From: a virus
Virus record (IMG/VR): IMGVR_UViG_3300042563_000557
Location: 1 to 31,876 of that record
Length of the DNA stretch: 31,876 nucleotides
Direction: 5' to 3' (one strand)
The notes beneath the pieces were generated by a model that did no database searches, was not told the origin of the DNA, and worked only from the letters and a program-made list of their open reading frames with translations. The position numbers and the translations under genes are program-made. Of the stretch, positions 9,154 through 31,876 are shown piece after piece (within the stretch, counting starts at the first letter, position 1; the number at the start of each line of letters is the position of its first letter).

Positions 9154-10680
9154 ATGGCTTTAAATAACATTAGTTTTGTAAAAGGAAAAGGCGGACTTGG
9201 GCGACCATTGGCGGGCAAGGACTACATTAGTGGACTTTTGTTTTATACAAATACGTTACCGAGTGGCTTTACCGCTACAAACAGAATAAAACAAATCTTT
9301 TCGGTTGCTGACGCCGTAGCGTTGGGAATTGGTAAAACATACGCAGACGAAACGCAAGCGTCGGGAGTTTATACCGTTACAGGAATGGGCGCAACGGGCG
9401 ACAGTATCGCGATTAACTTTTTAGAACCTGAAAGCAAAACAATTGTTTTAGGTACTTATGTTAAATTAGCGACAGACACAACCGTTTTACTAGTTGCAAC
9501 GGGAATTGTTAGCGCAATCAATGCAAATACTTACATTCACGGTTATAGCGCAACAGTTGGGGCGTTGGGAGCGTTTACAGTAAAAGCAAGAAAAGGACTT
9601 GGAATTTATGCAAATACCGTAGGACTTTTAACCGCTACAATCGCGGGAACAATTGCGGGAAGTTTAACGACGCCGTTTTCGGGTGGGGTTGCGTCTTTGC
9701 AAGCGACTTGGTATTATCATATTTCGGAATTTTTCAGAATTTCGCCAAAAGGTTTTCTTTGGTTAAATTTTCAAGCCGTACCCGCTTCGTACACTTATGC
9801 GGAAATACAATCGTTTCAAGAGTTCACAGGGGGCGCAATGCGTCAACTTGGTATCTTTGTAGATAGTAAAGCATTGGCGGTTTCAGATACAACAGCAATT
9901 CAAAGCATTTGTAATTTATTGGACGCGGAAAAAATGCCTTTATCGGTAATTTATGCGGGCGATATTAAATTGGTTACAACGATTTCAACTTTGACGGATT
10001 TGGCGACATTTTCAAACAATAAAGTTTCAATTGTTATAGGTCAGGACGGAGCAGGACAAGGGAACGCAATTTGGTACGCAACGGGCAAATCAGTTACAAC
10101 TTTAGGCGCAACGCTTGGGGCGGTTTCATTATCAGCAGTTAGCGAGAATATCGGTTGGGTTGCCAAATTTGACATGTCAAACGGTATCGAATTAGATACT
10201 ATTGCATTTGCAAACGGGGTTAAATTTTCGGACGCGTCAATTACGACGACATTATTAGACGCAATTGATTTAAAAAGATATGTTTTTTTAAGAACATTCC
10301 CAAACAAATCGGGTTCGTTTCACAATGACAGTCACACGGCAATTTCACAGTCTAGCGATTACGCGTATATTGAAAATAACCGAGTAATTGACAAAGCAAT
10401 TAGAGGAGTTGACGAAGCGTTGACACCTTCGTTAAATAGTCCTTTATTGTTAAACGCAAACGGAACTTTGGCAAATAGTACGGTTTCTTTTTTAACAGGA
10501 CAGGCGAGCGTAATAACTGACGAAATGTTGAGAAATGGCGAAGCGTCCGCAATTAGCGTGACAATTGACCCAAATCAAAACGTCGCAAGTACATCAAAAG
10601 TAATTGTCGCAATAGACATTGTTCCGATAGGAGTTGCGCGCAATATAGTTGTTAACATCGGATTTAAAACATCATTATAA
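9154..10680 (+). CDS. Contractile tail sheath protein (DUF2586-like)
   Basis: A 508-residue protein with the features of Bacteroidetes phage sheath proteins. N-terminal MALNNISFVKGKGGLGRP is followed by a long beta-rich variable region. Near the C-terminus stands YVFLRTFPNKSGSFHNDSH with NNRVIDKAIRG soon after (about 380-430), the conserved sheath core that forms contacts between subunits. The next gene is the tail tube, the normal order. This gene is the main evidence that the phage has a contractile tail. It starts in CAAAAAAAATGG about 35 bases after the capsid terminator. Confidence 0.85.
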   Translation: MALNNISFVKGKGGLGRPLAGKDYISGLLFYTNTLPSGFTATNRIKQIFSVADAVALGIGKTYADETQASGVYTVTGMGATGDSIAINFLEPESKTIVLGTYVKLATDTTVLLVATGIVSAINANTYIHGYSATVGALGAFTVKARKGLGIYANTVGLLTATIAGTIAGSLTTPFSGGVASLQATWYYHISEFFRISPKGFLWLNFQAVPASYTYAEIQSFQEFTGGAMRQLGIFVDSKALAVSDTTAIQSICNLLDAEKMPLSVIYAGDIKLVTTISTLTDLATFSNNKVSIVIGQDGAGQGNAIWYATGKSVTTLGATLGAVSLSAVSENIGWVAKFDMSNGIELDTIAFANGVKFSDASITTTLLDAIDLKRYVFLRTFPNKSGSFHNDSHTAISQSSDYAYIENNRVIDKAIRGVDEALTPSLNSPLLLNANGTLANSTVSFLTGQASVITDEMLRNGEASAISVTIDPNQNVASTSKVIVAIDIVPIGVARNIVVNIGFKTSL

Positions 10681-20389: not shown

Positions 20390-20419
20390 TTGCGTAATTA
20401 AATTACATTTGTATCTTTG
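20390..20419 (+). promoter_or_regulatory. Early promoter P1
   Basis: TTG (20390-20392), 19 bases, TATCTTTG (20412-20419) matches the Bacteroidetes consensus. The 18-mer TATCTTTGACCCAACAAA (20412-20429) recurs at 26937-26954, and GTAATTAAA lies at the same offset 18 bases upstream in both, so the two are duplicated early promoters. It drives the early block from 20449. Confidence 0.82.
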
Positions 20420-20665: not shown

Positions 20666-20690
20666 ACAGGGGCGCGACTGTTAAACGCGC
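20666..20690 (+). ncRNA. Interleaved-stem (pseudoknot-like) element, copy 1
   Basis: ACAG (20666-20669) can pair with CTGT (2078 to 81 of this block: 20678-20681), and GCGCG (20672-20676) with CGCGC (20686-20690). The arms alternate in the order A-B-A'-B', the topology of an H-type pseudoknot. It is followed by ATTAACTTAAAA and the start of the membrane peptide gene at 20713. Copies 2 and 3 change ACAG/CTGT to ACGG/CCGT, keeping the pairing. Confidence 0.6.
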
Positions 20691-20712
20691 ATTAACTTAA
20701 AATTCAATTATT

Positions 20713-20817
20713 ATGAAAACATTTTTATTAAAACAAAGATTTCAGATTTATTTTATAGGCGCATGCGTTTTGTATTTTGTCGGTCGCGTAATTATTCAAC
20801 AACTTTTTAATATTTAA
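20713..20817 (+). CDS. Small single-span membrane peptide
   Basis: A 34-codon gene with start context TTCAATTATTATG. The product has a basic N-terminus (MKTFLLKQRFQ) and one membrane segment (IYFIGACVLYFVGRVIIQQL). It lies directly behind interleaved-stem element 1. A membrane peptide made early in infection could act in superinfection exclusion or host takeover, but this is only a guess from location. Confidence 0.5.
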   Translation: MKTFLLKQRFQIYFIGACVLYFVGRVIIQQLFNI

Positions 20818-20821
20818 TCAA

Positions 20822-21076
20822 ATGAAAATCAAAATCACAAAAAAAGTAGAAGTAATCGAAACGGTAGAAATTAAATTGCCCGCATATTACAAAGACACGG
20901 CGCACCAATACAAAATAATTTCCGAAGAATATTGTATTTGCGTAACGGTAAGCGGTGGACTTCAAAAATTACATGCGGAATTACCTTTTAACATCGGCGC
21001 AATTGAAAGCACCGAGCAGGAATTTAACGACGCATTTATGAGGGTAATGTCAGAACTTAAAAACTTAATTAAATAA
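20822..21076 (+). CDS. Early protein, unknown
   Basis: An 84-residue protein with a strand-rich N-terminus (MKIKITKKVEVIETVEIKLP) and a C-terminal helix (EFNDAFMRVMSELKNLI). It starts 4 bases after the membrane peptide, and its stop overlaps the next ATG by one base. No family recognised. The N-terminal pattern of alternating charged and hydrophobic residues suggests a small alpha/beta fold. Confidence 0.6.
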   Translation: MKIKITKKVEVIETVEIKLPAYYKDTAHQYKIISEEYCICVTVSGGLQKLHAELPFNIGAIESTEQEFNDAFMRVMSELKNLIK

Positions 21077-21228
21077 TGAAAACAGAAAGCAAACGCGGGC
21101 GCAAATCAATTGACCCGCAGGACGTCAAAAATTTGCGGTTTCAATTGGTATTTTCGCAAAATCAAATTAACGCCGTCGGCGGTCGAGAAAATGCCTATAA
21201 ACTTTTAAAAAACGCAATCAAATGTTAA
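21076..21228 (+). CDS. Small basic protein, possibly DNA-binding
   Basis: A 50-codon gene overlapping the previous stop (TAATG). The product begins MKTESKRGRKSIDPQD, followed by strand LRFQLVFSQNQ and a helix ENAYKLLKNAIK. A basic tail, one strand and a helix recall short RHH or HTH-type phage regulators of the form RGRKxxDPxD..., but the evidence is thin. It overlaps the following gene by 7 bases. Confidence 0.5.
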   Translation: MKTESKRGRKSIDPQDVKNLRFQLVFSQNQINAVGGRENAYKLLKNAIKC

Positions 21229-21350
21229 TATTAAAAAACGGTTATTGGACTTTGTACGGCCAAAAATATTGTGAATTAAGCGCAACGGGTAAATTGGTTT
21301 TTAATTTGTTATTTGAAGACAAAAAAAGATTTAATTGCGTTGCACAATAA
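21222..21350 (+). CDS. Small protein, unknown
   Basis: A 42-codon gene starting inside the last codons of the previous one (ATGTTAA). The product begins MLILKNGYWTLYGQKYCELS and looks like a small beta-sheet protein. No family recognised. Coding is supported by the overlap arrangement and by the tidy end before the next promoter candidate, whose -33 box sits in its last codons. Confidence 0.45.
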   Translation: MLILKNGYWTLYGQKYCELSATGKLVFNLLFEDKKRFNCVAQ

Positions 21351-21370
21351 AAATAAAACAATTACTTTTG
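21340..21370 (+). promoter_or_regulatory. Promoter candidate before the acidic-protein gene
   Basis: TTG (21340-21342), 20 bases, TACTTTTG (21363-21370) fits TTTG-N19/20-TAnnTTTG. The ATG of the acidic protein follows at 21393 behind CTAACTTAAAAAATCAAAATT. Confidence 0.55.
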
Positions 21371-21392
21371 CCTAACTTAAAAAATCAAAATT

Positions 21393-21521
21393 ATGAATTT
21401 AGACGATTACATCGAGGGAACATTTAACCCCGATAACCCCGCAAATTACGAAGACGAAGACAATGAAAACGACATCGACGAAATCGAAGTCGAAGACCCC
21501 GAAATTTTAGAAACAAATTAA
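21393..21521 (+). CDS. Very acidic 42-residue protein without basic residues
   Basis: The product begins MNLDDYIEGTFNPDN and continues with a run of Asp/Glu. I count 17 acidic residues of 42 and no lysine, arginine or histidine. Such composition occurs in DNA-mimic proteins that block DNA-binding host defences, and also in disordered tails, so function is open. It has its own promoter candidate and the standard start context TCAAAATTATG. It is early and small, like many host-takeover or anti-defence proteins. Confidence 0.6.
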   Translation: MNLDDYIEGTFNPDNPANYEDEDNENDIDEIEVEDPEILETN

Positions 21522-21545
21522 TCACTTTAAAAATTACAATTATGA
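21515..21545 (+). repeat. 31-base leader repeat, copy 1
   Basis: The 31 bases ending in the start codon of the gene at 21542 are identical to those at 21711-21741, which end in the start codon of the gene at 21738. They begin AAATTAATCACTTTAAAAAT and include the stop of the previous gene. A shortened variant (ACTTTAAAAATTAGAAATTATG) stands before the gene at 22207. Confidence 0.8.
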
Positions 21546-21712
21546 AGCAAAACACACCTTATGTTAAAAAAGTTGAAAACGGTATTTTAGTAAATCCAAT
21601 TACAAAAGAAAACCCTTATTTATTTTCCCCGCATAGTTATTTAAAGACGACATTTAGAATGTGGCAAACGGTAAGAAATAAATTTTTTACAGGTCAAACA
21701 ATTATTAAATAA
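21542..21712 (+). CDS. Small basic protein, unknown
   Basis: A 56-codon gene between the two identical leader repeats. The product begins MKQNTPYVKKVENGILVNPI and ends MWQTVRNKFFTGQTIIK. It is basic and has no visible membrane segment or motif. No family recognised. The perfect leader and tight spacing support coding. Confidence 0.6.
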   Translation: MKQNTPYVKKVENGILVNPITKENPYLFSPHSYLKTTFRMWQTVRNKFFTGQTIIK

Positions 21713-21741
21713 ATTAATCACTTTAAAAATTACAATTATGA
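21711..21741 (+). repeat. 31-base leader repeat, copy 2
   Basis: Identical to 21515-21545. Together the two copies flank the 56-codon gene, so recombination between them could delete it cleanly in frame of expression. They may also act as a shared translation-control site. Confidence 0.8.
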
Positions 21742-22181
21742 GCAAAGACCTTTATTTCGAATTTAAGGCGGAACAAATGGCGACAATGTACGCGCCAACG
21801 TTCACAAAAAAAGAAGCGTTATTAACAGGAAAAAGAATGGTCGACGACCTGTTAGAAAAGGGCGAAGTTGACCCGTTGCAAGTTTGGACAAACGTTTGCA
21901 GACTTAAAGAGGTTGCAAATTCAGCAGACGCAACATTTAGGGACAAAGTCGAAATTCTTGAAAAGACAGTTATAAACGGCGTCGAGTTCACACCAACAAA
22001 CGGCGGTAATACTGTTAACTATTCCGAAGACGAAATTTACAACCAATTAAAAGCCGATTTGGACGCCCGCGTCGAATTGCTTAAATTAGCACAAAAACAA
22101 ACAATTATTGACTCATACGGGAACGACGTTCCAAAAGTCGGGACGACCCCGCGCAAAAGTTCAACAGCAATCAAATTTTAA
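21738..22181 (+). CDS. Early protein preceding SSB-like gene, unknown
   Basis: A 147-residue, mainly helical, mildly acidic protein (MSKDLYFEFKAEQMATMY; then KEALLTGKRMVDDLLEKGEV; ADLDARVELLKLAQKQ). It precedes the SSB-like gene by 25 bases, suggesting a role in DNA metabolism or recombination, but I recognise no domain. The C-terminus is basic and flexible (GTTPRKSSTAIKF). Confidence 0.6.
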   Translation: MSKDLYFEFKAEQMATMYAPTFTKKEALLTGKRMVDDLLEKGEVDPLQVWTNVCRLKEVANSADATFRDKVEILEKTVINGVEFTPTNGGNTVNYSEDEIYNQLKADLDARVELLKLAQKQTIIDSYGNDVPKVGTTPRKSSTAIKF

Positions 22182-22206
22182 CAATAAACTTTAAAAATTA
22201 GAAATT

Positions 22207-22836
22207 ATGGCAATCACAGCAAAAAAAAGCGAAACATTTGAAAGAGAATTAATCGAAGCGGGAAATTATGTCGCCCGTTGTTATAGAATGGTAGAAATCG
22301 GGACATGTGACGAAGAATTTTTGGGAGTAAAAAAGCAAATGCACAAAGTCCGTATCGGTTGGGAACTACCAACAGAATTAAAAATATTTAACCCTGAAAA
22401 GGGAGAACAACCGTGCGTTATTGACAAAGAATATACTTTGAGTTTGGCCGACAAAGCAAATTTAAGAAAAGATTTACAAAGTTGGCGAGGTAAAGCGTTC
22501 ACGGACGAAGAAGCCGAAGCGTTCGACATTACAAAACTTTTAGGCGTTTCCTGCATGCTTAATATTATACACGTTCAGGGCAAAAAAGACCCGACAAAAA
22601 CCTATCAGGCAATCGGGAGCGTTTCGCCAATGCCAAAGGGGTTACTTTGCCCGCCACAGGTTAATGAAACATTTGTCTTTGACTTTGAAAACTTCGACGA
22701 AATTAAATTTAACACTTTGCCCGACTTTTTAAAAGAGCAAATCGCAAAAACGCCCGAGTATAAAGAAGCAATTTCACAAACCGTTGAAGCGTCGCCGTTT
22801 TTAGAAAATAACGAAGACGAGCAACATTTTATCTAA
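22207..22836 (+). CDS. Probable single-stranded DNA-binding protein (DUF669-like)
   Basis: A 209-residue protein with strand-rich core: IEAGNYVARCYRMVEIGT (about 16-33), HKVRIGWELP, and DITKLLGVSCMLNIIHVQG near 107-125. This resembles phage OB-fold proteins of the DUF669/gp2.5-like group that accompany recombination and replication genes. The C-terminal tail is acidic and ends in a hydrophobic residue (ENNEDEQHFI), the usual partner-binding tail of SSB proteins. Position just before the replication block agrees. Family assignment tentative; SSB role likely. Confidence 0.58.
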   Translation: MAITAKKSETFERELIEAGNYVARCYRMVEIGTCDEEFLGVKKQMHKVRIGWELPTELKIFNPEKGEQPCVIDKEYTLSLADKANLRKDLQSWRGKAFTDEEAEAFDITKLLGVSCMLNIIHVQGKKDPTKTYQAIGSVSPMPKGLLCPPQVNETFVFDFENFDEIKFNTLPDFLKEQIAKTPEYKEAISQTVEASPFLENNEDEQHFI

Positions 22837-22846
22837 AAAATAGTTT

Positions 22847-22854
22847 TATATTTG
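22847..22854 (+). promoter_or_regulatory. Possible -7 element (TATATTTG) of the structured leader
   Basis: TATATTTG lies 11 bases after the SSB-like stop and just upstream of the structured segment, so a transcript would begin near 22860. No good -33 box is present at the right spacing, so it is either activator-dependent or fortuitous, and the leader may instead be read from upstream. Confidence 0.4.
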
Positions 22855-22867
22855 CAATTGTAATTTA

Positions 22868-22952
22868 GTGAGATTTATTACAAACCGTAAAATATTATAA
22901 AAATCCGATGCAGGACGCCAAATCTCACAATAGGCGAAATGTATCGGATTTT
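22868..22952 (+). ncRNA. Structured leader RNA or small RNA with loop-to-upstream pairing
   Basis: AAAATCCGATGCA (22900-22912) pairs with 22940-22952 as a 13-bp stem with one G-U. Inside it, CGCC (22916-22919) pairs with GGCG (22933-22936). The 13-base apical loop holds AAATCTCAC (22920-22928), perfectly complementary to GTGAGATTT (22868-22876) upstream. This makes either a pseudoknot or two competing folds. T-rich sequence (TTTTACTTTTT) follows the stem, so it could also end transcription. No open frame covers it. It lies between the SSB-like gene and the replication genes. Confidence 0.68.
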
Positions 22953-22972
22953 ACTTTTTAATTAATAGTTTA

Positions 22973-22990
22973 ACGGTATCTTAAAACCGT
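22973..22990 (+). promoter_or_regulatory. Hairpin at the start of the gene at 22997, with alternative upstream partner
   Basis: ACGGT (22973-22977) pairs with ACCGT (22986-22990), 6 bases before the ATG. A second ACCGT at 22884-22888 could pair with the same ACGGT. The surrounding AAACCGT..ATATTAT occurs at both places (22882 and 22984), an imperfect direct repeat. The arrangement would allow a switch that exposes or hides the start. Confidence 0.45.
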
Positions 22991-22996
22991 GATATT

Positions 22997-23203
22997 ATGG
23001 CAAAATTTGAATTAAAATTTTTAGATTTTATTGACAGTAAAGAATTTATTAAGGTTTCGACAGACGTTAATAATTCATTAATTGAAATTTACACAGAAAG
23101 CCAAGAAAATTTTTGTTTTATTTATTTAGATAAATCAACGGCAATAAAATTAGCGAAAACACTTCGTACCGAAATAAATAAAATAACTGAAAATAATATT
23201 TAG
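22997..23203 (+). CDS. Small protein downstream of the structured leader, unknown
   Basis: A 68-residue protein starting MAKFELKFLDFIDSKEFIKV, with strand-rich centre (SLIEIYTESQENFCFIYLD) and a C-terminal helix (STAIKLAKTLRTEINKI). It has the look of a small alpha/beta regulatory or accessory protein; I know no function. It is preceded by the structured segment at 22868-22990 and followed after 2 bases by the replication initiator, so its leader could control the whole replication operon. Confidence 0.65.
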   Translation: MAKFELKFLDFIDSKEFIKVSTDVNNSLIEIYTESQENFCFIYLDKSTAIKLAKTLRTEINKITENNI

Positions 23204-23205
23204 TT

Positions 23206-23880
23206 ATGAACGGTTACGAACTTTCACGGAATTGGTTTGATTGGAGTTTTGAAAACCCCGAAAAAATTAGTCCAAATCACTCGGCACTATATTTTTTTGC
23301 AATTGAACATTGCAACCGTTTAGGTTGGCGCGAAAAATTTGGATTTCCAACAGAAATGGCAAAAGACGCAATAGGTATAAAATCATATAATACATACATC
23401 AAAACTTTAAATGATTTAGTTGAATGGGGTTTTATAAAAATGATTGAAAGAAGTAAAAATCAATATTCATCAAATATAATTGCATTGTCAAATTTTGACA
23501 AAGCACTTGACAAAGCACTTGACAAAGCAATAGTAAAAGCAAGTGAAAAGCAATTGAAAAGCATTGATAGTATAAATAAACCATTAACCAATAAACAGTC
23601 TATTAATTGGATTGGACTTTTAGAACAATTTAATTCTATAACAAATAAGAAATTAAAAGTTGTAGACGAAAAAACAAAAAGACAAGTCGTTGCAAGGTTA
23701 AAAGACGGCTATACAAAAGCGGATTTGGTTTTGGCTATTACGAATTGTTTTAACGACGAATATCACAAAGAAAATCCAAAATATTTAACTTTAGAGTTTA
23801 TAACAAGACCCGACAAAATGCAAAAATATTGTCAAGAAATTAACAATAAAAAGCAACCTAAAAAAATCGATAAATTATGA
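23206..23880 (+). CDS. Replication initiator / replisome organiser (lambda O-like layout)
   Basis: A 224-residue protein. Residues about 1-90 look like a winged-helix domain (NWFDWSFENPEKISPNHSAL, then IKSYNTYIKTLNDLVEWGFI). A linker with repeated DKALDKAL (98-107) leads to a C-terminal domain INWIGLLEQFNSITNKKLKV through LVLAITNCFNDEY and YLTLEFITRPDKMQKY (about 165-210), the conserved phage C-terminal (Phg_2220-type) domain of initiators. It would bind the origin and load the helicase. The DNA coding for the linker holds six phased AAAGCA repeats and may be the origin itself, as in lambda O. The stop overlaps the next ATG by 4 bases. Confidence 0.75.
   Translation: MNGYELSRNWFDWSFENPEKISPNHSALYFFAIEHCNRLGWREKFGFPTEMAKDAIGIKSYNTYIKTLNDLVEWGFIKMIERSKNQYSSNIIALSNFDKALDKALDKAIVKASEKQLKSIDSINKPLTNKQSINWIGLLEQFNSITNKKLKVVDEKTKRQVVARLKDGYTKADLVLAITNCFNDEYHKENPKYLTLEFITRPDKMQKYCQEINNKKQPKKIDKL
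23495..23563 (+). repeat. Iteron-like repeats inside the initiator gene (origin candidate)
   Basis: TTGACAAAGCAC occurs three times in tandem (23495-23506, 23507-23518, and 23519-23530 with last base A). The core AAAGCA continues at 23536, 23547 and 23558. The six cores are spaced 12, 12, 12, 11 and 11 bases, close to one helical turn. An AT-rich stretch follows (about 23564-23610). Initiator-internal iterons next to an AT-rich region are the lambda ori plan. Confidence 0.55.
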
Positions 23881-24380
23881 CAATTGAAAAAGCATTGCAA
23901 CGAATTATTTGGCGAGTTTCCAACGGAGCGCACACACCAAACCAAAACGACGTCGAAGCCGTTACGATAGTCGCGGAATGGATAAACAGACAAAAATCGC
24001 AGGAACTACAACAAAACAGATTGTTTGCTAAAATGTACGTTTACTGTTTTATTCATGAATTGGATTTTTATAAAGATTTGAAATTCGCACAACGAAAATT
24101 GCACGAAATTTTAAAAACGCCTTTAAAGCAATTATACAACGATTTCAAAGACAAATTAAATTTAATCGAATTAAATACTTTAAAAAAGTCGTTAGGTTTT
24201 AGTAATTTGCACCCGCTTTTAATAACGGACGAAGAAATCGTAAAAGAAGCCGATTTAATAAAGGAAAATTCAGAAACTATACAAAAGTACGTTTTCGGTA
24301 TTTGGACGCCTGAAAAGATAACGAACGGCCTTAATAGTCAAATTTCCGAAGCAATAAACCACTACAAAAACTTAAATTAA
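23877..24380 (+). CDS. Replication-operon protein, unknown (helicase-loader candidate)
   Basis: A 167-residue, mostly helical protein (MTIEKALQRIIWRVSNGAHT, then NQNDVEAVTIVAEWINRQK; FAKMYVYCFIHELDFYKDL). No Walker motif is visible. It sits between the initiator (4-base overlap) and the helicase-like ATPase, the position often taken by loaders or bridging proteins, but this is only positional. No family recognised. Confidence 0.6.
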   Translation: MTIEKALQRIIWRVSNGAHTPNQNDVEAVTIVAEWINRQKSQELQQNRLFAKMYVYCFIHELDFYKDLKFAQRKLHEILKTPLKQLYNDFKDKLNLIELNTLKKSLGFSNLHPLLITDEEIVKEADLIKENSETIQKYVFGIWTPEKITNGLNSQISEAINHYKNLN

Positions 24381-24387
24381 TAAAATT

Positions 24388-25272
24388 ATGATTGATTTGC
24401 CAAAAATCGAGTTGAAACAAGAACCGCAGGAGCAGGAATTTAATTTTAAACAAATTCACGATTTGCAATTTGTCGACATCGACGAAGTATTAAAACCGCA
24501 ACCCGTAGCAATTAGTATTGGTGCAAGTCAATACAAAGGCCAAAGTTACCCGATACCGTTCGGAAGTTACGGGGATTTTAGTTGTATTGTCGGAGCGTCA
24601 AAGTCAAAGAAAACATTTTTAAAATCTTTGATAACGGCCTGTTATATTGGCGGAAATTCCAACGTATATTCAACAGAAATAAAAGGCCACAACGTCGGCA
24701 AAAAATGGGTCATTGATATTGTCACGGAACAAAGCCAATATCACGCCCAACGCGTTTTTCGCAGGGTTGCCGAAATGGTCGGAGCAAACCCAACAAATTA
24801 CGTTCCGTTTTCTTTGCGTACATTGTCGGCAAATGAACGTTTTAAATTCATTGATTGGATTTTCAACGAAAGCAAATATAAGGGCAATATCGGTTTGTTA
24901 ATTATTGACGGGGTTGCCGATTTGGTTAACGACGTTAATAATTTGGAGCAATCCAACGAAGTTTCGCAAAAATTGCTAGAATGGAGCGGGAACGAAAATT
25001 GCCACATAATAACAGTTTTGCACCGAAATTTTGGAAGTAACAAGCCGACGGGACATTTAGGGTCAGCAGTTTTAAAAAAAGCCGAAACGACGGTGTTTGT
25101 AGAAAAAGAAGACGACGCCGTTTTGGTTACGTCGGAATATAGCAGAAACCAACCGTTTGAAAATTTCGCCTTTACAGTTGACGAAAATTGGTTGCCTTGC
25201 GTAATTAACGAAGCGGTTACAAAACAGGAAATTGAAAAAATATTTAACAATAAAAACAAACCAAACTTTTAA
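24388..25272 (+). CDS. RecA-fold ATPase, probable replicative helicase (RepA/AAA_25-like)
   Basis: A 294-residue ATPase. Walker A is GASKSKKT (69-76), with flanking GDFSCIV; Walker B is GLLIIDGVADLV (169-180). Further core features are HIITVLHRNFGS (about 206-217), which suits the sensor strand, and GHLGSAVLKKAETTVFV (222-238). These match single-domain hexameric RepA-like helicases or AAA_25 ATPases in phage replication operons. There is no DnaB N-terminal domain, so it probably unwinds with the help of the initiator at the origin just upstream. Confidence 0.75.
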   Translation: MIDLPKIELKQEPQEQEFNFKQIHDLQFVDIDEVLKPQPVAISIGASQYKGQSYPIPFGSYGDFSCIVGASKSKKTFLKSLITACYIGGNSNVYSTEIKGHNVGKKWVIDIVTEQSQYHAQRVFRRVAEMVGANPTNYVPFSLRTLSANERFKFIDWIFNESKYKGNIGLLIIDGVADLVNDVNNLEQSNEVSQKLLEWSGNENCHIITVLHRNFGSNKPTGHLGSAVLKKAETTVFVEKEDDAVLVTSEYSRNQPFENFAFTVDENWLPCVINEAVTKQEIEKIFNNKNKPNF

Positions 25273-25283
25273 AAATAAAAATT

Positions 25284-25658
25284 ATGAAATCAAACAAAAT
25301 CGACGCGTTAAATTATCAATTGACATCAGGAAAAGCAACAAACGACCGCGCAAAAATATTGTTGGAAATATCAAAAAGACCGCTAACAATTGAAAACCTT
25401 GTTTTAATGGGTTGGAAAATACAAACCGCGTCGGCGCGTTGTTCGGAATTAGAAGACTTGGGAATGATTAAAAAAATGTATAACCCGTCTAATTCGTTTT
25501 CGTGGTTTAAGTTTGTAAGCGACCCACAGGAGCGCGAAGACTTGCGAAAACAAATTGCCAATAATAAAAAAGCCAAATATTTTGCCAAAGGCTTGGAAAT
25601 GGGTTATTTTGAATTAAACGAAAACGGTTTAATTATAAATTATAAATTTACTTTGTAA
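25284..25658 (+). CDS. Winged-helix protein
   Basis: A 124-residue basic protein. LLEISKRPLTIENLVLMGWK (about 27-46) and TASARCSELEDLGMIKKM (48-65) form a winged-helix-like pattern in which the second helix and wing would contact DNA. The C-terminal part has basic helices (EREDLRKQIANNKKAKYFAK). It lies between helicase and NinB; the role may be in recombination or transcription control. The stop overlaps the NinB ATG by one base. Confidence 0.55.
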   Translation: MKSNKIDALNYQLTSGKATNDRAKILLEISKRPLTIENLVLMGWKIQTASARCSELEDLGMIKKMYNPSNSFSWFKFVSDPQEREDLRKQIANNKKAKYFAKGLEMGYFELNENGLIINYKFTL

Positions 25659-26098
25659 TGCAAAAAATTACAATCAGGTCAAACGTAAACGGCGGGAATT
25701 TAAAAAGAAACCGAAATTTAATAATAGACGCAATAAAAACTTTTGAGGGCAACGACGTTTTAATCACTTTTGAAAAGCCAAAAAAGAAACGTTCAAACCC
25801 GCAAAACGCGTTTTATTATGGCGTAGTTATTCCAATTGTACAAAATTGTTTGCGTGACGCGGGGCATGTAATGACAAACGAAAGCACGCACGATTTAATA
25901 AAATTGAAATTTTTAAAAGAAATAATTTTGGCAAACGAAGACACGGGCGAAGTTATCGAACGCGTAAAGTCAACGACGGAACTTTCAACGTCTCAATTTA
26001 TGGATTTTGTCGCAGAAATTCGACAATTTACAAACGATTATTTCGGCGTCGATATTCCCGAACCAAGCCAAGAAATAACATTGGATTTTGGGAATTAA
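25658..26098 (+). CDS. ninB: NinB-like recombination protein
   Basis: A 146-residue protein with the NinB (Orf family) pattern: KKKRSNPQNAFYYGVVIPIV (about 42-61), a middle LIKLKFLKEIILA, and STSQFMDFVAEIRQFTNDYF (109-128) followed by GVDIPEPSQ. Lambda Orf/NinB is a recombination mediator that helps recombinases act on SSB-coated DNA. Its neighbour NinG and the SSB-like gene upstream agree with a lambda-like recombination module. Confidence 0.82.
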   Translation: MQKITIRSNVNGGNLKRNRNLIIDAIKTFEGNDVLITFEKPKKKRSNPQNAFYYGVVIPIVQNCLRDAGHVMTNESTHDLIKLKFLKEIILANEDTGEVIERVKSTTELSTSQFMDFVAEIRQFTNDYFGVDIPEPSQEITLDFGN

Positions 26099-26119
26099 AA
26101 AAAAATAACTAAAAATAAA

Positions 26120-26665
26120 ATGGAAAATAAAATAAAACCCCGAAGGTGCAAAATTTGCCAAATCGTATTCACGCCCGCAAGACAATTGCAGGGCGTTTGC
26201 GGTTACGATTGCGCCAAAGCATACGCGAACAAATTAAAAGAAAACAAAGCACGTCAGGAAAAGAAAATCTTAAAAGAAAAGCTAAAAACTTTGTCCGAGT
26301 ATGAAGCCGAAGCGAAAAAATCATTTCAAAGATTTATTCGTTTTAGAGACAAAGAATTGCCGTGCATAAGTTGCGGAAATGTAAACCCAACAGATTGGGC
26401 GGGCGGTCATTTTTATAGCGCGGGAATGTATAGCGGTTTTATTTTTGACGAAAGAAATTGCCACAAACAATGCAATACGCATTGCAATAAACATTTAAGC
26501 GGTAATTTATTAGAATATCGAAAAGGATTGATTAAACGATACGGAAACGATTTTGTTAACGAATTGGACGCTATTTCAGATAGCAAAAGAGATTATAAAT
26601 ATACAAAAGCCGAATTAATCGCAAAAAAATTAAAATACGATATTTTAATAAAAGAAATGAAATGA
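26120..26665 (+). CDS. ninG: NinG/Rap-like recombination endonuclease
   Basis: A 181-residue protein with an N-terminal zinc site (CKIC at 10-13, Cys27, Cys31), a basic coiled helix (ENKARQEKKILKEKLKTL), and a nuclease-like part: CISCG (82-86), WAGGHFYSAGMYSGFIFDER (93-112) and CHKQCNTHCNKHLSGN (114-129). This is the NinG (Rap) pattern, a Holliday-junction and branched-DNA endonuclease in lambda. It may resolve replication intermediates before packaging. It overlaps the next ATG by 4 bases. Confidence 0.85.
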   Translation: MENKIKPRRCKICQIVFTPARQLQGVCGYDCAKAYANKLKENKARQEKKILKEKLKTLSEYEAEAKKSFQRFIRFRDKELPCISCGNVNPTDWAGGHFYSAGMYSGFIFDERNCHKQCNTHCNKHLSGNLLEYRKGLIKRYGNDFVNELDAISDSKRDYKYTKAELIAKKLKYDILIKEMK

Positions 26666-26892
26666 ACAATAAAAATAAATTGCGGGCGGGTTCGCGTTGG
26701 CACGGTACAAAACAAGTTCCCGAACACGTCCAAATAAAAAAAGACAAACACGGGCGCGAATGTTATTTGACGGGTACTTTTTTGCAAAATGGGGTTTGGT
26801 ATCACGAAATAAAATACATCGATAACGACGAAATATTTACGGGTCGTTACGACATTTTAAACCCGTTCTTTGAAATTAAATTTATAAAATAA
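26662..26892 (+). CDS. Small protein after NinG, unknown
   Basis: A 76-residue basic protein starting MNNKNKLRAGSRWHGTKQVP. It is strand-rich (YLTGTFLQNGVWYHEIKYID) and has several Trp/Tyr/His, resembling small SH3-like or zinc-free phage accessory folds. The 4-base overlap with NinG suggests co-translation. No family recognised. It is the last gene before promoter P2. Confidence 0.6.
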   Translation: MNNKNKLRAGSRWHGTKQVPEHVQIKKDKHGRECYLTGTFLQNGVWYHEIKYIDNDEIFTGRYDILNPFFEIKFIK

Positions 26893-26913
26893 ATAAAAAT
26901 ATTATTGTTTTTG

Positions 26914-26944
26914 TTTGTGTAATTAAAATGTATTTATATCTTTG
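26914..26944 (+). promoter_or_regulatory. Early promoter P2
   Basis: TTTG (26914-26917), 19 bases, TATCTTTG (26937-26944) is an exact match to the Bacteroidetes consensus. It shares an 18-mer with promoter P1 (26937-26954 and 20412-20429), with GTAATTAAA at the same offset. It starts the block of small genes from 26976. Confidence 0.87.
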
Positions 26945-26975
26945 ACCCAACAAATAACAAAAAAATACAAAAATT

Positions 26976-27425
26976 ATGAAAAATCACATCAAAGGAATAA
27001 TGGAAAATGCAAAAAGAATTTACGAATATGATAACCGTAATTTTCAAACAAAAGCGATAAATAGTTGTATTGATAACGGAATGGTTACAATCACAATTGC
27101 AGACAAAGACAGGTTAAGCACCAACGCAAAGATTTTAAACAAAGACGGGAGTTTATTTGGTTTTAATTTAAGAGTTGACGCGTTCGGATTTACAAGTCGC
27201 GTTCGGGTTCATCATTATATTGCGCCAAACGATATTTTGTTAACAATTGGCAATTTGTTAAATAAACAAAACATTAAAGAAAAAATAGGCGCAACTTATT
27301 TAGAGAATTGCGATTGTTCCCGTTGTCACGGTAAAGGAATTATTCCGCAATTTCACTATTATTGCTCGGGAATTTGTTTCGATTGTTACGGGTCAGGAAA
27401 AAAAGTTGTAAAAAAATCAATATAA
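26976..27425 (+). CDS. DnaJ-type zinc-motif protein
   Basis: A 149-residue protein. The first 105 residues are strand-rich and unfamiliar. The C-terminal part carries CDCSRCHGKG (112-121) and CFDCYGSGKKV (134-144), two CxxCxGxG-like halves as in the DnaJ/TRASH zinc centre. Such isolated modules bind zinc and often contact nucleic acid or unfolded protein. It is the first gene after P2 and is followed by the second interleaved-stem element. Confidence 0.62.
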   Translation: MKNHIKGIMENAKRIYEYDNRNFQTKAINSCIDNGMVTITIADKDRLSTNAKILNKDGSLFGFNLRVDAFGFTSRVRVHHYIAPNDILLTIGNLLNKQNIKEKIGATYLENCDCSRCHGKGIIPQFHYYCSGICFDCYGSGKKVVKKSI

Positions 27426-27430
27426 TAAAA

Positions 27431-27455
27431 ACGGGGGCGCGTCCGTTCAACGCGC
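27431..27455 (+). ncRNA. Interleaved-stem (pseudoknot-like) element, copy 2
   Basis: ACGG (27431-27434) with CCGT (27443-27446), and GCGCG (27437-27441) with CGCGC (27451-27455), alternate as in copy 1 with identical spacing. Relative to copy 1, A-T is replaced by G-C in the first stem, a compensatory change. Followed by ATTAACCTAAAA and the ATG at 27478. Confidence 0.62.
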
Positions 27456-27477
27456 ATTAACCTAAAAAATTAAAATT

Positions 27478-27684
27478 ATGAAAGTATCGGATTTAAAAAA
27501 AGGGTCAATTATTGAAATACGAATGAATTTATCGCCTGAAAAAATGGACGTACCCGTAAAAGTAGAAATAGAACGGGCAACCGATAAATTTTTGTGGTTT
27601 AAATATAATTGTTTACAAAGAATGGGTCGGAATACTTTTCAAAATTGTATCGACCATTTTAATTGCAAAATAATATCGATTTAA
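27478..27684 (+). CDS. Small early protein, unknown
   Basis: A 68-residue protein: MKVSDLKKGSIIEIRMNLSP, then strand FLWFKYNCLQRMG and a Cys/His-containing C-terminus (FQNCIDHFNCKI). The beta-rich N-terminus recalls small SH3-like folds. It is bracketed by interleaved-stem elements 2 and 3. No family recognised. Confidence 0.6.
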   Translation: MKVSDLKKGSIIEIRMNLSPEKMDVPVKVEIERATDKFLWFKYNCLQRMGRNTFQNCIDHFNCKIISI

Positions 27685-27690
27685 AAATAA

Positions 27691-27714
27691 ACGGAGCGCG
27701 TCCGTTCAAAGCGC
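27691..27714 (+). ncRNA. Interleaved-stem (pseudoknot-like) element, copy 3
   Basis: ACGGA (27691-27695) pairs with TCCGT (27701-27705), and GCGC (27696-27699) with GCGC (27711-27714). The order of arms is again A-B-A'-B'. One base is missing between the first arms and the second stem is 4 bp, so this copy is slightly diverged. It precedes the winged-helix gene at 27746. Confidence 0.55.
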
Positions 27715-27745: not shown

Positions 27746-28099
27746 ATGAACAGTTTAAAAAAAATCGAAAAGTACGAAAAGGCGTTGGAAATTATTTTAT
27801 TTTGCGTAGAAGTTAACCCAAAGGTTAATTTGACCCAATTACGCAGGGAATTAAAAATAAATAAAAACTTCATTTCGGCATTATCAAAATTAAAGATTAT
27901 TGAAAACAACGGAAATCGTGGCGCGTCAAATTACACGTTATTAAGAAAACAAACGCCCGAAATGACAATGGAAGTTTTAAACTTTGCAAATAAATTGTCG
28001 TTAAACGTAAAAGAAACAATTATCGAAAAACATTTCGGAATTATTCAAATACAAAAAAAATCATTTTTACAAAAATTTGTCGACATTTTTAAATTTTAA
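27746..28099 (+). CDS. Winged-helix-type protein, possible regulator
   Basis: A 117-residue basic protein. NLTQLRRELKINKNFISALS and LKIIENNGNRGASNYTLL (about 28-66) look like helix-turn-helix plus wing. The C-terminal half is helical and basic. It lies in the P2 block and may regulate early or late transcription. The start lacks the standard TTATG context (AAAAAAATG instead). Confidence 0.5.
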   Translation: MNSLKKIEKYEKALEIILFCVEVNPKVNLTQLRRELKINKNFISALSKLKIIENNGNRGASNYTLLRKQTPEMTMEVLNFANKLSLNVKETIIEKHFGIIQIQKKSFLQKFVDIFKF

Positions 28100-30214: not shown

Positions 30215-31670
30215 AATAGACTTTAACCCCAAATTATTTAACAATCTTTATTGGCATTTACTAAATTATTTTAGTGATGCCAATTTCCGTTTTATATGGG
30301 TTTACGGCGGTTCGTCAAGTTCCAAAACCTTTTCGGTAGTACAACTTCAAATCGTACTTATGTTATCAGGCGAGGGCGAAAATAGTTTGATTTTAAGGAA
30401 ATACGCAAGCGACATTCGCGACAGTATCTTTGCCGACTTCAAAGGCATAATTTCTGAATGGGGTTTGAATGATTTATTTATCATACAACAAAATTATATT
30501 ATTTGCGTCCCGACGGGTTCGTTTGTTCGTTTTCGTGGTTTGGACGACAGCGAAAAGGTCAAAGGGATTTCCCAATTTAAGCGGGTAATAATGGAAGAAA
30601 TTTCACAGTTTGACGAATTGGATTTTAAGCAAATTAAAAAACGTTTGAGGGGTCGCGTCGGCCAACAGATAATCGGAATATTTAACCCAATAAGTGAGCA
30701 ACATTGGATAAAAGAAAATATTTTCGATAGGGAAACATTAACAGACATCGAAAGCAACATTTGCCAAACGCAAATAAACGCCACAGGAGACACGATAGTT
30801 TTGAAGACGAACTATTTAGATAATAAATATATTGTCGGCGAATGGGACGACGACGGGGCGCAAATCGGCGGTTTTGTCGATACGCATGTAATCAATGACT
30901 TTGAAAAGGATAAAATAAACGATTTTAATTATTATCAAATATACGGTTTGGGTAATTGGGGGAAACTTCGCACAGGTGGCGAGTTTTGGAAGGACTTTCA
31001 AACGGACAAACACGTCACGACAAAAAGTTGGGACGAAAGTTTGCCAATACATTTATCATTTGACGAAAACGTTAACCCACATATCACATGTCTAGTTTGG
31101 CAAATTAACGGCAAAATCGCGACACAGATTGACGAAATTTGTTTGCCCGACCCGCGAAATAGAGTTTTAGACGCTTGCAACGAATTTAAACAACGGTACC
31201 CCGTCGGCAGGGTCAAAGGTTTATTTTTATACGGCGACCGAACAAGTATAAAAGAGGACACGAAGTTGGCGAAAGGAGAGAATTTTTATACCAAAATAAA
31301 CCAACATTTAGCCGAATATTCACCACGTTTGCGCATGCAAAGTGTAAACCCAAGCGTCGCACAGTCAGGGGGTTTCATTAATGAAATTTATCGTAATTGT
31401 TTTGAAAATATAACTATCTTTGTAAATGATAAATGCAAAAAAAGCCTTTTCGATTATCAATATGCATTAGAAGACAGCGACGGAACCATTAAGAAATCAA
31501 AGAAAACAAACCCCGTAACAAAGGTAAGTTTTGAGGAGTTCGGACATTGTAGCGACGCGAAAAGGTACTTTTTAACGGTGGCGTTTGCTACTGAATATCA
31601 AAATTATTTAAGAGGTGGCCGAAAGTCCACAATTTCAATAGGTAGAAATAGAACAAAATCAGGGTATTAA
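30207..31670 (+). CDS. Large terminase subunit (TerL, ATPase and nuclease)
   Basis: A 487-residue packaging motor. Walker A is GGSSSSKT (34-41), following WVYG; Walker B is VIMEE (127-131), within FKRVIMEEISQFDE. FRGLDDSEKVKGI (109-121) matches the terminase adenine-side region, and GIFNPISEQHWI is the coupling motif. In the C-terminal nuclease, LSFDENVNP (Asp286) is the expected metal ligand, and GDRTS and DAKRYF lie further on. I chose ATG 30207; a TTG at 30159 would overlap the small terminase by 56 bases. The relative to PBSX/Terminase_3-type enzymes is likely; packaging mode cannot be told. Confidence 0.9.
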   Translation: MDKIDFNPKLFNNLYWHLLNYFSDANFRFIWVYGGSSSSKTFSVVQLQIVLMLSGEGENSLILRKYASDIRDSIFADFKGIISEWGLNDLFIIQQNYIICVPTGSFVRFRGLDDSEKVKGISQFKRVIMEEISQFDELDFKQIKKRLRGRVGQQIIGIFNPISEQHWIKENIFDRETLTDIESNICQTQINATGDTIVLKTNYLDNKYIVGEWDDDGAQIGGFVDTHVINDFEKDKINDFNYYQIYGLGNWGKLRTGGEFWKDFQTDKHVTTKSWDESLPIHLSFDENVNPHITCLVWQINGKIATQIDEICLPDPRNRVLDACNEFKQRYPVGRVKGLFLYGDRTSIKEDTKLAKGENFYTKINQHLAEYSPRLRMQSVNPSVAQSGGFINEIYRNCFENITIFVNDKCKKSLFDYQYALEDSDGTIKKSKKTNPVTKVSFEEFGHCSDAKRYFLTVAFATEYQNYLRGGRKSTISIGRNRTKSGY

Positions 31671-31735
31671 ATGAGTAAATTTATATTTAAAATGTATTTG
31701 ACATTCATTTTGATAGTCTTTAAAATAAAAAATTT

Positions 31736-31876
31736 ATGGCGTATTTAAACGGCACGGACTATTTATTGCAAATTCAGGACGTTAATTTGCAACAAATCAT
31801 TAATTCAAACGTCGCAATCAGGGAAAATGCAGACCTATTGGCCGAAGCCGAAGCGCGTTCGTACTTAATACAAAAG
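31736..31876 (+). CDS. Repeated start of the gp36-like gene (cut by window end)
   Basis: This is the second reading of the first 47 codons of the gene at 107-517, caused by the circular overlap. It differs only at 31756 (G for A), a silent change. It is not a second gene. Confidence 0.9.
   Translation, partial: MAYLNGTDYLLQIQDVNLQQIINSNVAIRENADLLAEAEARSYLIQK

Follow-up and report, generated by a model that had tools for sequence, protein, structure and literature searches.

A 31,876-nucleotide stretch of viral DNA (IMG/VR record IMGVR_UViG_3300042563_000557, positions 1 to 31,876; hereafter the window) carries three copies of a short RNA element. We are highly confident that these belong to a family of phage-borne RNA pseudoknots of the H type, compact (~ 22–25 nt) and folding in short ribosome-free gaps of polycistronic transcripts. 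The family is apparently undescribed. We found no description of the element in open-licence papers; the window had no match in Rfam 15, 15 element loci returned tRNAs only, and relaxing the search to E up to 10 gave only weak opposite-strand matches. As to function, we tentatively favour a cis-acting RNA that would influence transcription in the manner of the put sites of phage HK022.

An H-type pseudoknot supported by covariation

Searching the window with a 19-base core and up to three mismatches returned exactly three matches, all on the + strand, whereas dinucleotide shuffles of the window averaged 0.41 matches and never reached three. All three copies were defined from sequence and pattern search. 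Copy 1 (20666..20690, +) reads ACAG-GG-GCGCG-A-CTGT-TAAA-CGCGC, in which stem 1 pairs ACAG (20666-20669) with CTGT (20678-20681), stem 2 pairs GCGCG (20672-20676) with CGCGC (20686-20690), and loops 1 to 3 are GG, A and TAAA. Copy 2 (27431..27455, +), ACGG-GG-GCGCG-T-CCGT-TCAA-CGCGC, is built likewise from ACGG (27431-27434) and CCGT (27443-27446) for stem 1 and GCGCG (27437-27441) and CGCGC (27451-27455) for stem 2, with loops GG, T and TCAA. Copy 3 (27691..27714, +), ACGG-A-GCGCG-T-CCGT-TCAA-AGCGC, is degenerate, with only one base (A) in loop 1 and G.A as the final pair of stem 2, which keeps four of five pairs (GCGCG/AGCGC). This imperfect copy is identical in a close relative (L055). A first-pass annotation of the sequence had proposed three interleaved-stem copies here, with the alternating arms of an H-type pseudoknot and a compensating change between ACAG/CTGT in copy 1 and ACGG/CCGT in copies 2 and 3. 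All of this stands, with the A-U to G-C exchange as described and the qualification that copy 3 is imperfect. A nested folding program finds only stem 2 in the window copies because it is unable to form knots.

A consensus search that allowed for covariation, as the same annotation had suggested, uncovered a large family reaching beyond phages of Bacteroidetes. Its consensus is NNRG-GG-GYGCG-N-CYNN-(NN)AA-CGCRC-A, 22–25 nt long, with a nearly fixed GG as loop 1, a loop 3 ending in AA and a stem 2 of GYGCG/CGCRC. Stem 1 has three or four pairs, the outer of which vary freely provided pairing is kept, and a shorter form with NAA or AA as loop 3 is also common. Classical H-type knots place a 2-nt loop over five pairs and an A-rich loop of 2–4 nt over four pairs, and the element has this geometry.

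The IMG/VR scans used back-fixed sequence, and their counts are of matches listed and no measure of abundance. The exact window motif occurs at at least 82 loci; about 27 of those listed carry the first arm and are nearly all intergenic, while those in GC-rich coding sequence, which do not, are chance matches. Matches of the type xGGGGGTGCGCATCC were likewise set aside as coding sequence (GGVRI) with stem 1 unpaired. When stem 2 was set to GCGCG/CGCGC or GTGCG/CGCAC and stem 1 was unconstrained, 114 and 122 distinct matches were listed, among which stem 1 formed four of four Watson-Crick pairs in 46 and 61, respectively (47 and 68 with G-U allowed). With a C.A mismatch in stem 2, a complete scan found stem 1 fully paired in only 4 of 103 distinct matches, and with an A-U version of stem 2 the figure was 3 among 107, of which two are genuine. 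Stem 1 therefore pairs often where stem 2 is intact and rarely where it is mismatched, from which we conclude that both stems covary. An unfiltered alignment of 80 matches shows two-sided changes at each of the four stem-1 pairs; its covariation score of 0.379 lies above the shuffled value of 0.145 (sd 0.013) and above every slid version. The second pair of stem 2 is C-G, U-A or, rarely, A-U. When stem-2 positions 2-4 were left free, 65 GCGCG/CGCGC and 52 GTGCG/CGCAC copies were found among 130 distinct matches (all loci collected); almost no other paired version appeared. A search for further stem-2 variants yielded a few A-U copies (L405, L749). Both of the alternating helices are thus backed by covariation, and the shuffles, the stem-1 pairing counts and the covariation score rule out a chance origin. 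We also looked for signs that only one stem is conserved, or that the likeness is confined to plain terminators, and found neither. An intrinsic terminator is rejected on other grounds as well: on the sense strand there is no U tract, and what follows is an A-rich or C-rich stretch with a start codon. Any resemblance to a terminator on the opposite strand comes solely from the A-richness of the spacer.

A second type of knot, GGTG-GG-RAGCG-CA-CACC-N8-9-CGCTY, with a two-base loop 2 and a loop 3 of 8–9 bases, sits in neighbouring gaps of Corynebacterium phage PSonyx (L545; 26014 and 26347) and in gaps of L386.

Placement at gene junctions

Among 313 deduplicated elements, 303 have the stop codon of a same-strand open reading frame (ORF) within 120 nt upstream. 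Distances from stop to element are cut off sharply below 5 nt (seven exceptions at 3–4 nt) and peak at 5–6 nt; copies 1, 2 and 3 of the window lie 7, 5 and 6 nt behind their stops. With at least 5 nt of spacing, a ribosome on the stop codon would just touch the knot without opening it. A pseudoknot promoting stop-codon readthrough or frameshifting is rejected for the window copies, where a second in-frame stop follows within 2 codons (copies 2 and 3) or within 14 (copy 1). In seven loci with CCAG as stem 1 (L184, L164, L159, L181, L194, L222, L259), a hairpin GGGTGG..CCACCC lies between stop and element, and the spacing is 31–36 nt.

The next ATG is usually 7–35 nt 3' of the element (22, 22 and 31 nt for copies 1 to 3). 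This spacing, the position of the element where mRNA would enter a ribosome standing at the stop codon, and a phage precedent, the pseudoknot operator in the mRNA of T4 gene 32, would suit a translational device that controls initiation at the following gene or keeps termination apart from reinitiation. The first-pass annotation had considered a shared translational operator, but as a general role this fails. A tRNA begins 3–5 nt 3' of the element in six loci (Pumpernickel, crAss-like or similar contigs, and L530), at L203 tRNA genes flank it on both sides, and at L236 and in phAPEC8 a terminator without a nearby start directly follows. At L310 the element is in a 5' untranslated region (UTR), so that, together with L203, a translated neighbour appears unneeded on one or both sides. 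Start spacing, moreover, ranges from 2 to more than 100 nt, and we found no protein family common to the neighbours, upstream or downstream. Downstream genes encode tiny membrane proteins and ERF-like recombinase, HNH-like, lysozyme-like and helicase products as well as tRNAs, and the first genes are equally diverse, which rules out a shared regulator protein or a common target gene. The T4 operator is likewise an H-type pseudoknot in phage mRNA, but it serves 5' UTR autoregulation by one protein in one phage group, whereas the element precedes many genes, tRNAs and terminators. Translational control is thus ruled out as a universal role and, overall, seems improbable to us.

In Mycobacterium phage Acadian (L140, 353-377) the annotated start of gp91 falls inside the element and a likely ATG lies ~ 32 nt downstream; judged from the sequence, the deposited start is probably wrong.

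In several loci (L008, L016, L040, L043, L051, L061) the genes upstream of the element are homologous but are followed across it by differing genes, helicase-like and others, and the reverse also occurs. Recombination boundaries thus fall frequently at the element, probably as a secondary effect. Exchange at such joints (L008, L016, L040 and L051, for example) is what a DNA site, either a recombination boundary or a set of protein-binding inverted repeats, would predict. Such a site would not, however, account for the single orientation relative to genes, the hard stop-codon spacing or the asymmetric loops, and binding of a protein to DNA would conserve the bases themselves, whereas the outer stem-1 bases vary freely and yet pair. 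We consider a DNA site very improbable.

Carriers of the element

The element spans phages of Bacteroidota, Actinobacteria and Enterobacteria. Named crAss-like carriers are cr50_1, cr55_1 and cr1_1; others are the Corynebacterium phages BFK20 and PSonyx, mycobacteriophages in hundreds of records (clusters B and P among them), Microbacterium phage Pumpernickel, Escherichia Phapecoctavirus with a Pseudomonas relative, and one Microviridae genome in which the element lies between VP1 and the next gene. Most phage contigs have one to three copies. In cr50_1 (L546) the record annotates a tmRNA gene, with tRNAs alongside, at 9375-9870.

Bacterial genomes nearly lack the element. A specific version searched against 84,980 bacterial and archaeal species genomes gave four matches, of which the only genuine one is on a crAss-like contig; 296 actinobacterial genomes gave two chance-like matches, and the plasmids searched gave chance matches only. 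The phage specificity proposed in the first-pass annotation is therefore upheld at the RNA level.

A phage-specific, early-expressed RNA in single to few copies could serve as a decoy titrating a host factor, in the way that pseudo-ToxI titrates ToxN. Type III antitoxins such as ToxI and CptI are small H-type pseudoknot RNAs, and phages can evolve mimics of them (PMC5086642). Those antitoxins are, however, tandem repeats of 34–45 nt processed by the toxin, whereas the element is mostly single-copy, has diverse neighbours and no toxN-like gene beside it, and is not found in host genomes. With no tandem repeats, no similar RNA in the host genomes searched and a strict coupling to gene junctions and promoters, we regard an anti-defence decoy as very unlikely.

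Promoter proximity and possible action on transcription

Two predicted promoters of Bacteroidota type, both consensus matches on the + strand, precede the window copies: P1 (20390..20419; TTG-N19-TATCTTTG) lies 246 nt 5' of copy 1, and P2 (26915..26944), of the same type and with the same leader start, lies 486 nt 5' of copy 2. Their -7 boxes and leaders are identical (TATCTTTGACCCAACAAA, ending at 20419 and 26944). From P1 the order is first gene, then copy 1; from P2 it is first gene, copy 2, second gene, copy 3. The copies are therefore found where the first-pass annotation had put them, just 5' of a start codon and 3' of the first or second gene after P1 or P2, and its suggestion of an early place in operons extends to relatives. 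Using a simple promoter consensus (TTG-N18-23-TAnnTTTG) 120–420 nt upstream in low-GC contigs that had been chosen for carrying the element, we found a promoter at 62% of element junctions, against 7% of element-free gaps of 45–90 nt and 5% of small gaps in the same contigs. The promoter-to-element stretch is filled by a single ORF in 109 of 125 cases, so that the element is most often behind the first gene after the promoter.

In low-GC phages the element thus has the promoter-proximal, early-operon location of a put-type site. In HK022, transcription starts ~ 270 nt before putR, which acts on RNA polymerase with no phage protein involved (PMC9378689). Like the element, putL and putR are promoter-proximal cis-acting phage RNAs; they differ in being ~ 70 nt long with two stem-loops and no described knot topology, where the element has interleaved stems in 22–25 nt, and in belonging to lambdoid phages, where the phages with the element span at least three host phyla. 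Termination is suppressed by put through the zinc-binding domain of the RNA polymerase beta' subunit. In lambda, nutR follows cro, so that the RNA site comes directly behind the stop codon of the first small gene after the promoter and ahead of the rest of the early operon. The element in its junctions repeats this order, although the nut site between cro and cII, made up of a linear boxA and a boxB hairpin, depends on N and the Nus factors; we saw no conserved N-like gene beside the element.

Our favoured, though tentative, explanation is therefore a promoter-proximal cis RNA acting on transcription in a put-like way, its target and effect being what we infer from fold, orientation, placement, promoter proximity and phage specificity. 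RNA polymerase would transcribe the element soon after the promoter, usually past one small gene, and the knot would fold as soon as it emerged from the polymerase. Being at least 5 nt past the stop, it would be left folded by the terminating ribosome and could then influence the transcription machinery in cis, promoting read-through of the operon by antitermination or polarity suppression. No shared phage protein would be needed for this, with HK022 putR and the placement of lambda nutR as parallels. We rank this explanation first because of the ribosome-free gap, the lack of need for a start codon or coding neighbour, the restriction to phages, the early promoters and those two parallels.

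Several observations weigh against put-like action. Intrinsic terminators within 200 nt downstream are not in excess (3 of 300 element junctions against 39 of 3152 control junctions). PSonyx has several knots in neighbouring gaps, which one antiterminator would not need, and the copies in L236 and phAPEC8 stand directly before a terminator. Mycobacteriophage and crAss-like copies lie behind long genes, far from any known promoter. Finally, that one RNA should act on the polymerases of three phyla is a strong demand. The missing terminator excess, the PSonyx series and the copies before terminators bring an exonuclease barrier close behind.

In that main rival, which we judge somewhat less likely, a mechanically strong knot would stop exoribonucleases and slow the decay of upstream (or downstream) mRNA. 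A knot tight behind the stop, at 5–6 nt, would protect the whole reading frame, and in the six cases 3–5 nt before a tRNA 5' end, RNase P cleavage would leave few unpaired 3' bases. The copies before terminators and the consecutive occupied gaps of PSonyx fit equally, and a purely mechanical role suits the wide host range. It is also possible that the element is a processing site. Protection would, however, leave unexplained both the 62% versus 7% promoter proximity and the L203 copy flanked by two tRNAs. It could be achieved with ordinary hairpins, yet the loop and stem-2 sequences are fixed. A block to 5'-3' nucleases would make no sense in E. coli, which to our knowledge has no 5'-3' exonuclease, though Phapecoctavirus carries the element. 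Repetitive REP/BIME sequences, found in similar gaps near stop codons, and viral xrRNAs are structured RNAs comparable as possible nuclease barriers. REPs, by contrast, are high-copy chromosomal hairpins, where the element is phage-only, low-copy and promoter-proximal, and xrRNAs are larger and come from eukaryotic viruses.

Genes and other features of the window

The first gene after P1 (20449..20658, +; 69 aa, without a convincing family) ends 7 nt before copy 1, and the gene 3' of that copy (20713..20817, +) encodes 34 aa with one hydrophobic segment. Tiny proteins of this kind (24–50 aa, a single hydrophobic segment) often lie directly 3' of the element in unrelated-looking phages (L291, L296, L311, L335, L358 and others). 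After P2 come a first gene (26976..27425, +; 149 aa) whose stop is 5 nt 5' of copy 2, a second (27478..27684, +; 68 aa) between copies 2 and 3, and a third (27746..28099, +; 117 aa) starting 31 nt 3' of copy 3.

The window ends, 1-247 and 31630-31876, share 247 bases with one mismatch, which indicates that the contig is terminally redundant or circular and represents a complete phage genome of ~ 31.6 kb. An intergenic region at 22836-22975 (+) folds far better than its shuffles (z -3.54), with a long terminal stem, a T-rich tail and a promoter-like TATATTTG; its 9-nt segment GTGAGATTT is complementary to AAATCTCAC in a loop. It has no Rfam match and, on these features, is likely a small RNA, possibly itself knotted.

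Implications

The broader reading is of a new kind of protein-independent phage RNA device, a ~ 25-nt pseudoknot through which transcripts from early promoters may be controlled, by action on a machine conserved among bacteria (RNA polymerase, Rho or the decay machinery). Its users would be tailed phages of Bacteroidota, Actinobacteria and Proteobacteria that are unrelated to one another, together with at least one microvirus. We hold this reading as a whole to be plausible while stopping short of thinking it probable. That phages of several host phyla share one short structured RNA suggests a common, portable control of phage transcripts. For annotation, the element marks early junctions and exposes wrong start codons. 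Were it an antiterminator, put would be far larger and less widespread by comparison; were the element a nuclease barrier, it would be the bacterial-virus counterpart of xrRNA.

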